NCBI GenBank assembly: GCA_028874795.1
Contig: JAPPHT010000014.1
Coordinates: forward strand, 1 to 60,656
Direction: 5' to 3'
DNA from: Chloroflexota bacterium
GTDB taxonomy: Bacteria > Chloroflexota > Dehalococcoidia > Lucifugimonadales > Australimonadaceae
Length of the DNA: 60,656 nt
The translations under genes and the position numbers were made by a program. This document shows positions 35,453 to 59,577 of this stretch, piece after piece. The first letter of the stretch is position 1; each line of letters opens with the position of its first letter. The notes under the pieces are model-generated. The model ran no database searches. It saw nothing but the letters and a program-made list of their open reading frames with translations, and was not told the DNA's origin.

Positions 35453-36502
35453 TTATCCGGTTGCCGGGGCCGCCGGTTCGAGTTCGGCTTCGGGAACGGG
35501 AGCCTCGCTGTGCCCGTTCGCGGCATCGATGCCGCGAACTCTCGCCTCGATCTGGTCGGCGATCTCCGGATTGCCGCGGAGGAACGTCTTGGCGTTCTCG
35601 CGGCCCTGCCCCAGGCGCGTTTCGTTGTACGAGTAGTTCGCGCCGGACTTGCGGACGATCCCCATCTCCACACCGAGGTCGAGGAGGTCTCCTTCCTTAC
35701 TGATGCCTATCTTGAACATGATGTCGAACTCGGCCTGCCTGAAGGGCGGGGCGACTTTGTTCTTGACGACTTTCGCCCTGACCCGTGAGCCGACAGGGTC
35801 CGTCCCCTGCTTGATCGTTTCGATACGCCGCAGGTCTATGCGGACGGAGCTGTAGAACTTGAGCGCCCTGCCTCCCGGAGTGACTTCCGGGCTCCCGAAG
35901 AAGACCCCCACCTTCTCCCGCAGCTGGTTCACGAACACGACTGCGGTGTGGGATGTATTGGTGGCGGCAGTAAGCTTGCGAAGCGCCTGCGACATCAGCC
36001 GTGCCTGTAGCCCGACGTGGGCGTCTCCCATGTCGCCTTCGAGTTCTGCCCGGGGCACGAGAGCGGCGACGCTGTCCACGACGACAACGTCCACGGCGCC
36101 GCTGCGCACGAGGTACTCGACGATCTCCAACGCCTGCTCGCCGGAGTCAGGCTGCGAGATGAGGAGTGAGTCCACCTGGACGCCGCACTGTGCGGCGTAG
36201 GTGGGGTCCAGTGCGTGCTCAGCGTCTATGTAGGCGGCGGTGCCGCCGCGACGCTGCGCTTCCGCGACGATGTGGCTGCAGAGCGTGGACTTCCCTGCGG
36301 ACTCCGTTCCGAATACCTCGGTGACCCGTCCCTTCGGGATTCCTCCTATACCCAGGGCCAGGTCCAGCGAGATGGAGCCCGTGGGGATGGCTTCCACATG
36401 CAGGCTCTGGGAGGCTTCCCCCAGCCGCATGATCGCCCCGTGCCCGAACTGCCGTTCTATCTGCCCGAGAGCCAGTGCCAGCGCTTGTTCCTTGTCAGAC
36501 AT
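35453..36502 (-). CDS. recA: Recombinase RecA
   Basis: 349 residues. Walker [10 protein letters not shown] (65-73), Walker [13 protein letters not shown], the DNA-binding loop [19 protein letters not shown], and [12 protein letters not shown] are all present; the C-terminal tail is Glu/Pro/Ala-rich. The Walker A Ala replaces the more common Ser. Upstream in-frame ATG codons at 36628 and 36547 add non-conserved residues. ATG 36502 ([20 protein letters not shown]) is the family start and has an AGGAC site. I could not find a clear SOS box upstream. Confidence 0.95.
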
Positions 36503-36552
36503 GTCCTTTGGCCTCGTCTCCTGGCTGCCACTTGCCAGTATTTTCATCGTAT

Positions 36553-36575
36553 CACACCCGCATCCGCGGGCTGTG
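36553..36575 (-). other. Hairpin in the recA leader
   Basis: CCCGC (36557-36561) pairs with GCGGG (36566-36570) over a 4-base loop, and flanking CACA/TGTG can extend the stem. It lies 50-70 bases upstream of the recA start and has no T-tract. Possible role in leader structure; no known regulatory element recognised. Confidence 0.25.
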
Positions 36576-36692
36576 TGGCGGTTGCTGACGAGTTTCCCAC
36601 GCATATGGCGCAATCGCGCAAGGGGCATGTGTCACAGATCCGGAATTCCACAAAACCGGATGCCTGCAGGGGCGTTCGTGGGGGTTGAGCGT

Positions 36693-55608: not shown

Positions 55609-55817
55609 TCCCCTGTCCCTCTGACGCATCATAAGAAACGCGGAGAGTCGGAACGCCTCTTTCTGAGGAGAGAGGTAACGCGCTTCCCCCGCGTGGTGAG
55701 GGTTGCCGGGGTTGAAGCTCAGTCGGATTAGTGACACCGGCTGGTTTCACAGTTGACGACAACGTGGTAACCTGATTCCACAGTCGAAGTTCGCCGGATG
55801 AGACGCAGCACGGGGAC
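55609..55817. other. Gap with a degenerate dispersed-repeat copy
   Basis: The gap between thpR and the capsid locus starts with a degenerate copy of the repeats seen further on (GAGGTAACGCGCTTCCCCC, GTGGTGAGGGTTGCC). CTGATTCCACA at 55772-55782 is repeated exactly at 57092-57102, upstream of the capsid gene. No gene or clear promoter was found. Confidence 0.45.
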
Positions 55818-55851
55818 AAGCCCCGGCCTTGTAGAGGGCCGGGGCTTTTTT
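55818..55851 (+). terminator. Intrinsic terminator
   Basis: Perfect 12-base stem AAGCCCCGGCCT-type (55818-55828 pairing with 55837-55847), 8-base loop, then six T. It ends the proB-to-thpR gene run and separates it from the capsid genes. The stem is symmetrical, with A residues on its left, so it may also act on the other strand. Confidence 0.85.
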
Positions 55852-55897: not shown

Positions 55898-56587
55898 ATG
55901 GAGTCATACGAGGTGAGCACAGGATTGAGTGACCGCGAGCGATGGGAGCGGGAGCGGCTGCTGGAGTCGCTGGAGGCGTATCGCCGGGGACTGGCCGATG
56001 CGCCGGTTGTGCAGAGGTTCTCGGTCTGCCGCGCTGTGGCGCCGAACGACGACCGTCCGCTCACGGTTGTCGCGTCGGATGAGTCCGCCGACCGCCTGGG
56101 CGACGTCGTGCGCGCCGACGGATGGGACCTGGACGCCTACAAACACAATCCTGTGTTTCTGTGGGCGCACGACTATACCCGGACACCGATCGGCCGAAGC
56201 TCCTGGGTGGACGTGGAGGGCTCCCGGCTGGTGGCGACCGTGGAGTTCGCGCCCACGGCCTTCGCCCAGGAGGTCGAGATGCTCTACCGGCAGCGCTTCT
56301 TACGCGCCGTAAGCGTCGGCTTCCGCGCGAGGGCGTTCTCGTTCCGCAAGGGGCGCGACGGCTCGGTGGACGGGATCGAGTACACGAAGCAGGAGTTGCT
56401 GGAGCTGAGCGCCGTCCCGGTGCCGGCGAACCCGCACGCGCTGGCGAAGGCGTTCGAGGGCGGACTCGATGCCCCGCGGCTGCGCCCGCTGTTCACGTTC
56501 GACCTCCCGCCGGCCCCCGTTTCGCCAGAGGACGCGCAGCGCGTGCTGAGCGAGCTTCGCCGCCTCCGCGGTCTGGTCTCGGCGTAG
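55898..56587 (+). CDS. HK97-family phage prohead protease (S78)
   Basis: 229 residues. The family motifs are present: RLGDVVRADGWDLDAYKHNPVFLWAHD with catalytic His91, IGRSSW, and FLRAVSVGF with nucleophile Ser139, followed by ELLELSAVPVPANPHAL. In HK97-like phages this enzyme matures the capsid. ATG 55898 has GAGGAGG 6 bases upstream. It follows a terminator and precedes a small gene and a major capsid gene. No portal or terminase lies upstream, where they would normally be. Confidence 0.9.
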   Translation: MESYEVSTGLSDRERWERERLLESLEAYRRGLADAPVVQRFSVCRAVAPNDDRPLTVVASDESADRLGDVVRADGWDLDAYKHNPVFLWAHDYTRTPIGRSSWVDVEGSRLVATVEFAPTAFAQEVEMLYRQRFLRAVSVGFRARAFSFRKGRDGSVDGIEYTKQELLELSAVPVPANPHALAKAFEGGLDAPRLRPLFTFDLPPAPVSPEDAQRVLSELRRLRGLVSA

Positions 56588-56610
56588 GGCACATGGTGGG
56601 ACTCGGACTT

Positions 56611-56800
56611 GTCATCCCGAGCGGAGCGCAGCGAAGTCGAGGGATCTCTCGGGACTCCCCTCGCCCCTTGGGAGAGGGAAACGCGCTTCAGCGCGAGGGT
56701 GAGGGTGCCCCGGCTGATGAGGGTTGCCCCCGAATCGGTGCTGACGCACCCGCCCTCACCCGCCACTGCGTGGCTGGGGGTGAGGGCTCCGGAATAGGCC
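56611..56800. repeat. Dispersed repeat block between protease and capsid genes
   Basis: Several repeat units are joined: GTCATCCCGAG...GCGAAGTCGAGGGATCTCTCGGG (56611-56653), matching 42493; GGGAAACGCGCTTCAGCGCG at about 56676-56695, repeated at 58649-58668; then CGCCCTCACC...GGTGAGGGC near 56751-56786, a self-complementary part. These are scattered non-coding elements. They fill most of the 259-base gap between the two capsid-related genes. Confidence 0.6.
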
Positions 56801-56846
56801 TTGACAACAAATACGGCCCTGCGCGGGCCGGGAAAGGAGGAGAGCG

Positions 56847-57095
56847 ATGCGGATAGCACAGGTGGTGCGCGTGGCACTGCAGGCGGCCCGGCTGGTCGAT
56901 GGCCTTTGCCGGGTTGCCCCGGAAGCTGCCGAGGCGCTGGAGACCGGAGCGCGGCTGATGCGCGAGTCGGTCCGCGCCGCGCCGGACGGCCTGACCGTAG
57001 CCGAGCGTGACGCGCTGGCGTCTTCGGCGCGCCGGTTCGGCGAAGCGCTCGCGGAAGCGATAGAAGCCGCGCCGGTCGTCCAACAGGAGAACTGA
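56847..57095 (+). CDS. Small helical protein between protease and capsid genes
   Basis: 82 residues, mostly alanine-rich helix (VALQAARLVDGLCRVAPEAAEALE), no known domain. GGAGGAG precedes ATG 56847. It ends 20 bases before the capsid gene and is probably translated with it. A head-decoration, scaffold or cargo role is possible, as is a non-phage function; nothing shows which. Confidence 0.65.
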   Translation: MRIAQVVRVALQAARLVDGLCRVAPEAAEALETGARLMRESVRAAPDGLTVAERDALASSARRFGEALAEAIEAAPVVQQEN

Positions 57096-57115
57096 TTCCA
57101 CACAAGGAGGAGAGC

Positions 57116-58441
57116 ATGTCTGCGATAGACGAGATGCAGAAGGAGATAGTGGAGACACAGGAGTTCGTGCGCGAGCGGCTCGGCCCCGTCACCAAGGAGC
57201 TGACCCTCATGCGCGAGGAGCAGGAGCGGCTCGCCGGCGAGGTGCGCCGTGTGCTGGAGCACGACCGCTCGGTCCGCCGCGACGCCCTGCTGGGCCGGAC
57301 GTCGAACGACCGCGTCCGCGTGCGGGGCGGGAAGCTCGATGGGTTCGACCTTGTGGACCTCGCCGTGATGCGGAGCCTGCTCGCCGCGCAACAGGCGCGC
57401 CCCCAGGACTACGATCCCCGCTCGCTGCGGGCCTGGCAGGACAGCGTCGCCAAGGCGATGGACTCCACGACCGCGGGCGCGGGCGACGAGCTCGTTCCCC
57501 AGGAGGAGGCCCGCCAGCTCTGGGCGGACGTGAACCTCGAAACGGCCGTCGCGTCGCTCTTCGAGACCGTCACGATGCCGTCCAACCCGTTCGACGTGCC
57601 GCTGCAGCTGGGCGACGTCAACTGGTACCCCGGCACGGCGAATGCGGCGACGACCGCCACGGACCTGAAGACTGCGAAGCAGACGCTGACTGCTCACGAG
57701 CTCGTCGGCATGGTGCCGTGGGCGTACGAGCTGGACGAGGACGCCGTCGTCGCGATGATGGCCGAGGTGCGGAGCACGCTGGTGCGCAACGCGGCCCAGG
57801 TGCTGGACGACGTGTTGCTGAACGCGGACACGTCCCCCGCCGGCAACATCAACCACGACGGCGAGGGCCTGACCGCTGCCATGGCGGGCAAGGCGCACTA
57901 CCTGCTGGGGTTCGACGGCCTCCTGCACCTGCCGTTGATCGACAACGCGGCGATGCGGAACAACTTCAACGCGAAGCCGACCGCCGACATGTGCAACCAG
58001 CTGCGGCGGATGCTTGGCAAGTACGGCGTGCGCCCGTCCGAGCTCGCCTTCGTCACGGACGTGGGCACCTACATCGCCATGCAGGCGGTGGACAGCTTCC
58101 AGACGCTGGACAAGCTCGGTCCGCGCGCGACGCTCCTCACCGGGCAGCTGGGCGCGGTTGAGGGCGTCCCCGTCATCGTGTCGGAGCAGTTGCGCCTCGC
58201 CGACGCGGACGGCAAGGTCACGTCGGACGGGAACATCGCGGAGACGGGGCGCTTGCTGCTCGTGAACCGCACCCAGTGGCGCAAGGGCTTCAAGCGCGAG
58301 CTCCTCATCGAGACCGACCGCGACATCCAGAAGCGCCAGAACGTCATGGTCGTGAGCATGCGCGTCGCCTTCGCGGAGCGCTCCGCTGACCGCGCCAACG
58401 CCACGCACACCGCGCTCCACTACAACGTGAAGCACGCGTAG
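57116..58441 (+). CDS. HK97-fold major capsid protein
   Basis: 441 residues. The N-terminal 60 residues are a charged coiled coil like the scaffold delta domain (MQKEIVETQEFVRERL), then a prohead-type body: FETVTMPSNPFDVPL, TAHELVGMVPWAYELDED, LLNADTSPAGNINHDG, MCNQLRRMLGKYG and TLLTGQLGAVEGVPVIVSEQ. The protease gene upstream fits removal of the N-terminal domain. ATG 57116 with GGAGGAG. The body is intact with no stop codons, so it is probably expressed or recently so. Confidence 0.9.
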   Translation: MSAIDEMQKEIVETQEFVRERLGPVTKELTLMREEQERLAGEVRRVLEHDRSVRRDALLGRTSNDRVRVRGGKLDGFDLVDLAVMRSLLAAQQARPQDYDPRSLRAWQDSVAKAMDSTTAGAGDELVPQEEARQLWADVNLETAVASLFETVTMPSNPFDVPLQLGDVNWYPGTANAATTATDLKTAKQTLTAHELVGMVPWAYELDEDAVVAMMAEVRSTLVRNAAQVLDDVLLNADTSPAGNINHDGEGLTAAMAGKAHYLLGFDGLLHLPLIDNAAMRNNFNAKPTADMCNQLRRMLGKYGVRPSELAFVTDVGTYIAMQAVDSFQTLDKLGPRATLLTGQLGAVEGVPVIVSEQLRLADADGKVTSDGNIAETGRLLLVNRTQWRKGFKRELLIETDRDIQKRQNVMVVSMRVAFAERSADRANATHTALHYNVKHA

Positions 58442-58740
58442 CAGCCGCAGCCACCCTCGCCTTATCCCTTCTCCCTTGCCAGGGGAGAGGGATAGGGTGA
58501 GGGTGAACCAGACGCGGGGCGCAGCCCCCGTCATTCCCGCACCGGCGGGAATCCAGAGCGACCGTCAGGTCGCTGGGGAGGCTGGGTCGTGGGAGGAGGC
58601 TGATCCCATCGCCCCCTGGGAGAGAGCCTGCCCTGAGCTTGCCGAACGGGGAAACGCGCTTCAGCGCGTGGGTGAGGGTGAACCAGCGTGCGCGACAAGC
58701 GGAGCGCACACGGCGGTGTAGGGAGGCCCTTGTGCGTTCC
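58442..58740. repeat. Dispersed repeat block downstream of the capsid gene
   Basis: Holds three repeat types: GGGAGAGGGATAGGGTGAGG-like at about 58481-58505, the palindromic GTCATTCCCGC-ACCG-GCGGGAATCC at 58530-58554, and CCTGCCCTGAGCTTGCCGAA followed by GGGAAACGCGCTTCAGCGCG at about 58629-58668. No gene or terminator with a T-tract is seen in these 299 bases. Confidence 0.6.
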
Positions 58741-59577
58741 TTAGCCTGTCCCCACAACCTCCGGCTCGCTGAACGCGAGACGCTCCGCCATCACGCGCAC
58801 CGCCTCCGGGTTGCTGTCGATGAGCAGGTAGCGCCTGCCGTTGCGTGCCGCGGCCTCGCCCGTCGTCCCCGACCCCGCGAAGAAGTCCAACACCAGGTCG
58901 CCGGGGTTGGAATGCACTCGCACGATGCGGTTGAGGATGGCTATGGGTTTCTGGGTCGGGTAGCCCGTGCGCTCGCGCCCCACGGTCGGCACGATCGTCT
59001 GCCACCACACGTCGGTTGGCACCTTGCCGCGCGCCGCCTTCTCTGCTCCCGCGAGGCCCGGCGCCATGTACGGCACCCGGTCGATGGCCTCATGGTGGAA
59101 CGCGTACCGCGCCGGGTCCTTCACGTACCAGAGCAGCGTGTCGTGTTTCGCGGGCCAGCGGCTCTTCGGCCTCCCGCCGTAGTCGTACGCCCAGATGATC
59201 TCGTTCATGAAGCAGTCCCGCCCGAACAAGGCGTCGAGCAGCACCTTGCAGTAGTGCGCCTCCCGGTAGTCGATGTGCAGGAAGAACGAACCCGTGGGCG
59301 AGAGGGTGCGGTAGGCCTCGACGAGCCGGGGCTCCAGGAACGCGAGGAAGTCGTCGAACACGTCGTCGAACGACTGCGCGCCGAGGCGCACCGTCCGGTA
59401 CCGTTTGCCCTGGAACCCCGTGCGGTCGCCGTGGTCGTCGTCGCGCACCGTCCGCAGCCGCTCGCGGCGCTGGGCCTTGCCCGTGTTGAATGGCGGGTCG
59501 ATGTAGATGAGCGCCGCGGAGCCGTCCTCGATGGTCGGCAGCACGTCCATGTTGTCGCCGAGCACGATGCGGTTCAC
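58741..59577 (-). CDS. Site-specific DNA methyltransferase (N4/N6, beta-class order)
   Basis: 278 residues. Motif IV DPPF is at 27-30 near the N-terminus and motif I DFFAGSGTTG is at about 231-240, the order of beta-class methyltransferases; YPTQKP precedes motif I. It should methylate adenine N6 or cytosine N4. GTG 59577 overlaps the HAD stop (GTGA). No restriction endonuclease is adjacent, so it is an orphan methylase or a remnant of a phage or restriction system. Confidence 0.88.
   Translation of the reverse strand: MNRIVLGDNMDVLPTIEDGSAALIYIDPPFNTGKAQRRERLRTVRDDDHGDRTGFQGKRYRTVRLGAQSFDDVFDDFLAFLEPRLVEAYRTLSPTGSFFLHIDYREAHYCKVLLDALFGRDCFMNEIIWAYDYGGRPKSRWPAKHDTLLWYVKDPARYAFHHEAIDRVPYMAPGLAGAEKAARGKVPTDVWWQTIVPTVGRERTGYPTQKPIAILNRIVRVHSNPGDLVLDFFAGSGTTGEAAARNGRRYLLIDSNPEAVRVMAERLAFSEPEVVGTG

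Follow-up and report, generated by a model that had tools for sequence, protein, structure and literature searches.

Genes at the capsid locus

The window, by which we mean the whole 60,656-nucleotide stretch of DNA that was analysed, is contig C4 of the source genome G000, an assembly of 3.33 Mb in 90 contigs that is 97% complete. Between a gene for a LigT-type 2'-5' RNA ligase and a DNA methylase gene it carries three genes, for a prohead protease, a small helical protein and a major capsid protein, each with a good ribosome-binding site at its start (Table 1). A first-pass annotation had singled these out as intact genes isolated between housekeeping genes, and their coordinates and reading frames are correct. 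It had also noted the lack of other phage genes nearby; we found no terminase, portal, tail, lysis or integrase gene among the ORFs read from 40 to 60.6 kb of the window, and the genes further downstream of the locus in relatives are likewise cellular. A prophage would be recognized by its phage genes lying in one continuous stretch, those for integration and lysis included; we found no such stretch at the capsid locus or in relatives within the genus. The full prophage that relatives might have carried at this site was not seen; there too, the three genes stand alone between host genes.

Table 1. Features of the capsid locus and of related loci elsewhere (positions refer to the window unless a contig or locus is named)
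Feature	Position	Strand	Remarks
Promoter-like element of the protease-capsid operon	55732..55773	+	TGACA 55732-55736; 8 nt; -35-like TTTCAC 55745-55750; 17 nt; -10-like TAACCT 55768-55773; conserved in genus, common to dispersed loci
Short hairpin CGGGG-ACAAG-CCCCG	55811..55825	+	Core GG(G)GAC(A/G)AGCC recurs in dispersed leaders
Leader intrinsic terminator	55818..55851	+	Hairpin of about -27 kcal/mol, then T run; between promoter and protease start codon
Prohead (HK97-type) protease, 229 aa	55898..56587	+	Peptidase_S78 1e-8; phrog_80 head maturation protease 6e-17
Helical ORF, 82 aa	56847..57095	+	No family match; kept in 6/6 species of genus
Major capsid protein, 441 aa	57116..58441	+	PF05065 4e-10; phrog_10 4e-15
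Portal, 426 aa	C22:17685-18962		Alone near mfd
Head-tail adaptor	C17		With small upstream ORF
TerL, three loci	C41, C79, C84		C84 copy frameshifted
Stand-alone tail loci, other families of the order	L307 11055-14278; L308 11537-14972; L309 8559-12418		Small membrane protein of 70 aa

The protease retains the His (WAHD) and Ser (SVGF) motifs and the ELLELS..PAN motif, and a search of its profile against solved structures found no relative. The 82-aa ORF, with 73-90% identity across the six species, appears from our sequence searches to be confined to the source genus. An AlphaFold model of the capsid protein built from a 66-sequence alignment reached a pLDDT of 78; an earlier one based on only 16 sequences had a poor pLDDT of 49 and was set aside. 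The better model matches T5/HK97 capsids, with Z scores of 18.1 and 17.2 against T5-type heads, and the RcGTA capsid and encapsulins are also among its structural matches. Its predicted N-terminus is a long helix (2-60), followed by the HK97 fold, which comes nearest to that of T5-type heads; as modeled, this helix resembles the HK97 delta (scaffold) domain. The GC3 of the capsid gene, 0.955, is host-like or higher. PADLOC returned no match for the protease or the capsid.

The methylase gene adjoining the capsid gene (window 58741-59577, reverse strand) encodes a type II-like N6/N4 DNA methylase that five species of the genus retain (dN/dS 0.13) and that is missing from the locus in G001. An interspersed intergenic repeat (ctcgcccc..gagagggaaacgcgcttcagcgcgagggtgaggg) with more than 50 matches in the genome occurs at window positions 56610-56800, 55620-55720 and 58460-58680; in-frame copies of it are apparently translated within the linker of some TerL proteins.

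Inheritance and selection

The protease, 82-aa ORF and capsid genes are present in all six genomes of the genus, and in five of them at the same site. The gene order proB-proA-...-LigT-protease-ORF-capsid-methylase-HAD-comF is retained in G002-G005, and in G001, a more distant, basal species, the three genes are retained near the HAD and comF genes. Host synteny is also kept around the portal and adaptor loci described below, and around the TerL loci between G000 and G005. Within groups of genomes the capsid locus keeps its host flanks, from which we conclude that the genes descended in place and were not repeatedly inserted.

Pairwise Nei-Gojobori comparisons within the genus gave dN/dS values of 0.127 for the capsid, 0.152 for the protease, 0.152 for the 82-aa ORF, 0.080 for the portal and 0.231 for the adaptor, while five host genes ranged from 0.075 to 0.178 with a dS comparable to that of the head genes. 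By this measure the head genes are under purifying selection, within or near the host-gene range. Since the genus preserves all three frames of the capsid locus, at a dN/dS of 0.13-0.15 like that of neighbouring host genes, their conservation is, judged from these comparisons, far beyond chance, and the first-pass view that intact frames speak against simple decay is borne out. In G003 a frameshift close to the N-terminal helix breaks the frame of the capsid gene (L042 9666-11095); damage, an assembly error or recoding could each account for this.

Head and packaging genes elsewhere in the genome

A search of the contigs of the source genome recovered a portal gene, a head-tail adaptor gene and three TerL loci (Table 1), so that, with the protease-capsid operon, six loci lie on six contigs. 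The profile of the portal has the RcGTA portal Rcc01684 as its best solved match (2.8e-45). The TerL genes were missed by the PF03354 terminase model and were recovered with an in-family alignment. Portal and adaptor are single-copy in the genus and TerL is multi-copy, the copies of G000 and G005 occupying matching sites. In the closed chromosome of G001, the adaptor lies at 0.13 Mb, the portal at 0.46 Mb and the capsid at 2.23 Mb, with eight TerL genes spread across 2.1 Mb. Seven of these eight TerL proteins are 97-99% identical, yet their synonymous sites differ (dS 0.3-0.45; dN/dS 0.01-0.08), which indicates that each copy is under strong constraint. The TerL expansion comprises eight copies in G001 (L262-L269) and six in G025 (L285-L287).

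Terminase and capsid genes co-occur despite being unlinked: among 59 relatives, a strong TerL match was found in 16 of the 19 capsid-positive genomes and in 1 of the 40 capsid-negative ones (Fisher p 1.4e-10, with kinship ignored). At least six TerS-like small HTH proteins (phrog_2538) are scattered in G000 (L355, L356, L372, L376, L346 and L258); their genes have the promoter box described below and no leader terminator. One family, a proline-rich lipoprotein with RCC1-like repeats, adjoins both the portal and the adaptor genes (L057 11024-12658 and L261 2033-4120).

The suggestion that terminase and tail genes might be found elsewhere in the genome held for the terminases and failed for the two tail families searched. 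In relatives from the order, tail genes form a locus of their own that encodes a major tail protein, a chaperone-like protein, a hub-like protein (F10) and a small membrane protein, with no tape measure; that of G025 is directly beside recA. We searched the source genus for the tail families of these relatives (MTP9 and F10) and did not find them. Either the source genus uses tail genes other than those of the MTP9 and F10 families, or it makes heads only.

Distribution of the capsid family

The other five genomes of the genus each have a capsid homologue, at 81-94% identity, and homologues are also present in 12 of the 47 genera of sampled relatives. Among named genomes the capsid profile found 73 loci, all in Dehalococcoidia, SAR202 or Chloroflexota records; outside such records, homologues were found only in viral contigs. 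Identity to capsids of cultured phages is only about 22%, and full phages exist with capsids about 45% identical. In the capsid tree, the source genus and its sister genus form one clade that contains cellular sequences only.

IMG/VR holds 68 contigs with a capsid homologue (L132-L199). Some are true phages with a full cluster, including a tape measure (L185, L176); others are short, with host flanking genes as on chromosomes. We rejected the reading that all of these matches are true viruses, because at least 14 of the 68 carry the cellular flanking families of chromosomal loci. These 14 or more are therefore probably pieces of SAR202 chromosomes that are listed as viral.

A shared promoter and leader terminator

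Alignment of the regions upstream of the dispersed genes uncovered a common design: TGACA-N8-TT(G/T)C-N17/18, a -10-like hexamer, and a leader in which a strong intrinsic terminator precedes the start codon. The promoter box alone has 102 matches genome-wide against 11 in the control, or about 90 sites, in a class that includes recA, radA, a lexA-containing operon, several TerS-like genes and metabolic genes. As a signature of packaging genes the box alone was therefore rejected, and specificity lies only in the combination of promoter and leader terminator. A sigma-54 reading of TGACAC..TTGC was also dropped: the sigma-54 consensus has a spacing of 10 between the GA and GC doublets, and here the spacing is 12.

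Of the 19 core-genus loci tested, automatic scoring found the leader terminator in 17, at a distance of 108-137 nt from the box and with energies of -18 to -30 kcal/mol; in the two leaders that it missed, the hairpin is visible by eye. None of the 56 other box sites in G000 reaches the terminator strength of the packaging loci. A search of G000 for box plus terminator returned six matches, exactly the six packaging loci. In G005, G003, G002 and G004, matches at packaging genes numbered 7 of 7, 4 of 4, 3 of 3 and 6 of 7, respectively, and the control gave zero throughout. G001, whose leaders have the box and lack the terminator, gave one match, away from packaging genes. Over the six genomes of the genus, 26 of 28 matches fall at packaging genes, a figure to be read knowing that the pattern was designed from some of the loci that it recovers; the TerL loci of G002, G003 and G004 were left out when the pattern was derived, and they match too.

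In the protease, portal and adaptor leaders and in the C41 and G005:C14 TerL leaders, the terminator is preceded by a short hairpin with the loop AC(A/G)AG (AGAG in the portal leader). Because this hairpin overlaps the 5' arm of the terminator, the two structures exclude each other. The short hairpin is a candidate antiterminator or protein-binding element that could hold the terminator open. Searched against Rfam, the window yielded a tRNA and nothing else, which means that the leader belongs to no curated family.

Several other genes carry the packaging-type box. The recA ORF (at about 35453-36628 of the window, reverse strand) has it, as TGTGACAC-N7-TTGCG, at window 36617-36636 on the same strand, and radA (L330) and the lexA-containing operon (L332) have it as well. 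Multi-copy AAA_25 ATPases of ~500 aa with a Zn-finger-like N-terminus are apparently leaderless behind the box (L348 and L352 in G000, L333 in G005).

Interpretation

In our best reading, the capsid locus is part of a domesticated phage head-and-packaging system in a SAR202-type Dehalococcoidia genus. We consider it likely that its loci make up a dispersed, vertically inherited, jointly switched system that works like a gene transfer agent (GTA). The first-pass annotation had listed a GTA fragment with its other genes elsewhere among its possibilities, and this is the one that the genomes favour: portal, adaptor and terminases lie elsewhere in the genome, are kept vertically, and have a common promoter-terminator architecture. 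A cellular genome here contains phage-derived capsid and DNA-packaging genes (protease, capsid, portal, adaptor, TerL and TerS-like) that are inherited vertically under purifying selection, with cellular relatives only in Dehalococcoidia/SAR202. The loci are on different contigs, and hundreds of kb to Mb apart in the closed chromosome, too far for joint packaging if the head is phage-like and holds tens of kb at most. No particle would therefore carry all of them, which argues for GTA-like packaging of host DNA.

Under this GTA-like reading, the genes would have spread over the chromosome one locus at a time and then descended vertically. Coordinated expression is read here at the level of sequence: since the promoter element and leader terminator are common to six loci, the loci are probably off by default, with transcription stopping at the leader terminators, and switched on jointly. 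An activator of the promoter class, combined with an antitermination step, would turn on all loci together, and by analogy control is probably by antitermination as in Caulobacter. The capsid would then assemble around the portal using its own N-terminal scaffold helix, the protease would mature the heads, and a TerS/TerL pair would fill them with DNA, mostly pieces of the host chromosome, for transfer.

A more tentative possibility is a DNA-packaging system of heads only, its genes dispersed singly or in pairs, with several alternative terminases, a per-locus antitermination regulon and no phage tail genes. The DNA would be released or taken up otherwise, or packaged for an in-population purpose other than infection-like delivery. 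Such a head-only particle has to be considered because the tail families MTP9 and F10 were not found in the genus.

An encapsulin-like compartment made of protease and shell only is improbable. It would fit the isolated shell gene, the HK97 fold and the encapsulins among the structural matches; but encapsulins are shells without portal, terminase or prohead protease, and here all three are present and co-conserved. They are retained jointly with the scaffold-like N-terminal helix, the adaptor and TerS-like genes, and one regulatory signature is common to the protease-capsid, portal, adaptor and TerL loci. The operon holds no conserved cargo-like gene, the 82-aa ORF aside. This compartment, which had been proposed at first pass, is unsupported because the retained set is what a DNA-packaging capsid needs.

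We regard it as very unlikely that the locus is a decayed prophage, that is, head genes left over from an old integration and drifting to loss. The missing MTP9 and F10 families, the frameshifted TerL at C84 and the existence of full phages with related capsids could be taken that way. However, the sites are conserved, the frames are intact in all six species bar the one N-terminal frameshift in G003, dN/dS is 0.08-0.23 at host-like dS, unlinked loci have a common regulatory architecture, and seven G001 TerL paralogues are under strong purifying selection; intact frames, selection and synteny together speak against decay.

It is similarly remote that the genes form a capsid-making parasite or immunity device whose particles interfere with a helper phage or need one for tails: head and packaging genes with no detected tail genes recall the split of functions between capsid-forming satellites and their helper phages, but no integrase or excision gene was seen beside the loci read, dispersed and unlinked genes make no element able to mobilise itself, and PADLOC recognized neither protease nor capsid.

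Comparison with known systems

In the Caulobacter GTA (CcGTA), GafY activates and GafZ lets RNA polymerase read through terminators (PMC11150451). Our system would resemble it in having domesticated head and packaging genes under host control, with accessory genes elsewhere, and in combining promoter activation with antitermination through terminators (PMC11150451). CcGTA, however, is encoded mainly in a single cluster of about 14 kb whose first gene is followed by a terminator, whereas in our system every gene or gene pair is preceded by a promoter and a terminator of its own, the terminator lying upstream of the start codon. RcGTA shares the HK97-type head, the closest solved portal and a structurally matching capsid; it differs in belonging to another phylum, and our system differs in having a capsid sequence closest to T5-type heads, several TerL genes, and dispersed genes in place of a single cluster of capsid, tail and adsorption genes.

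It is common for a GTA to be encoded at several loci, in some cases with just one or two genes at each, and GTAs are hard to find computationally, since they look like remnants of phages and their genes are divided among loci (PMC11841831). VSH-1 of Brachyspira hyodysenteriae, as cited there, is a GTA with a divided genome (PMC11841831); unlike VSH-1, the packaging genes here are split to one or two per locus. The full phages L185, L176 and L182 of IMG/VR have homologous TerL-portal-protease-capsid-adaptor families, but they cluster everything together with tape measure and tail genes, while the chromosomal tail loci of relatives lack a tape measure. Encapsulins share the HK97 fold of the shell protein and differ in the protease, scaffold-like helix, portal, adaptor and terminases retained here.

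In open-access papers we found no literature linking GTAs to SAR202, Dehalococcoidia or Chloroflexota. Dispersal over loci and control by antitermination are each known from GTAs already; in those papers we found no account of the two combined in Chloroflexota, with loci of single genes or gene pairs, more than one TerL gene and a terminator preceding every locus. A true GTA here would add one more phylum, and within it a large uncultured clade, to those that have domesticated the packaging of DNA for transfer. It would also be an extreme case, its genome dispersed almost completely and united by a regulatory signature. Because that signature is searchable, its prevalence can be tested in other genomes. 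A true GTA of this kind would also suggest that antitermination is a recurrent control of such costly machinery.
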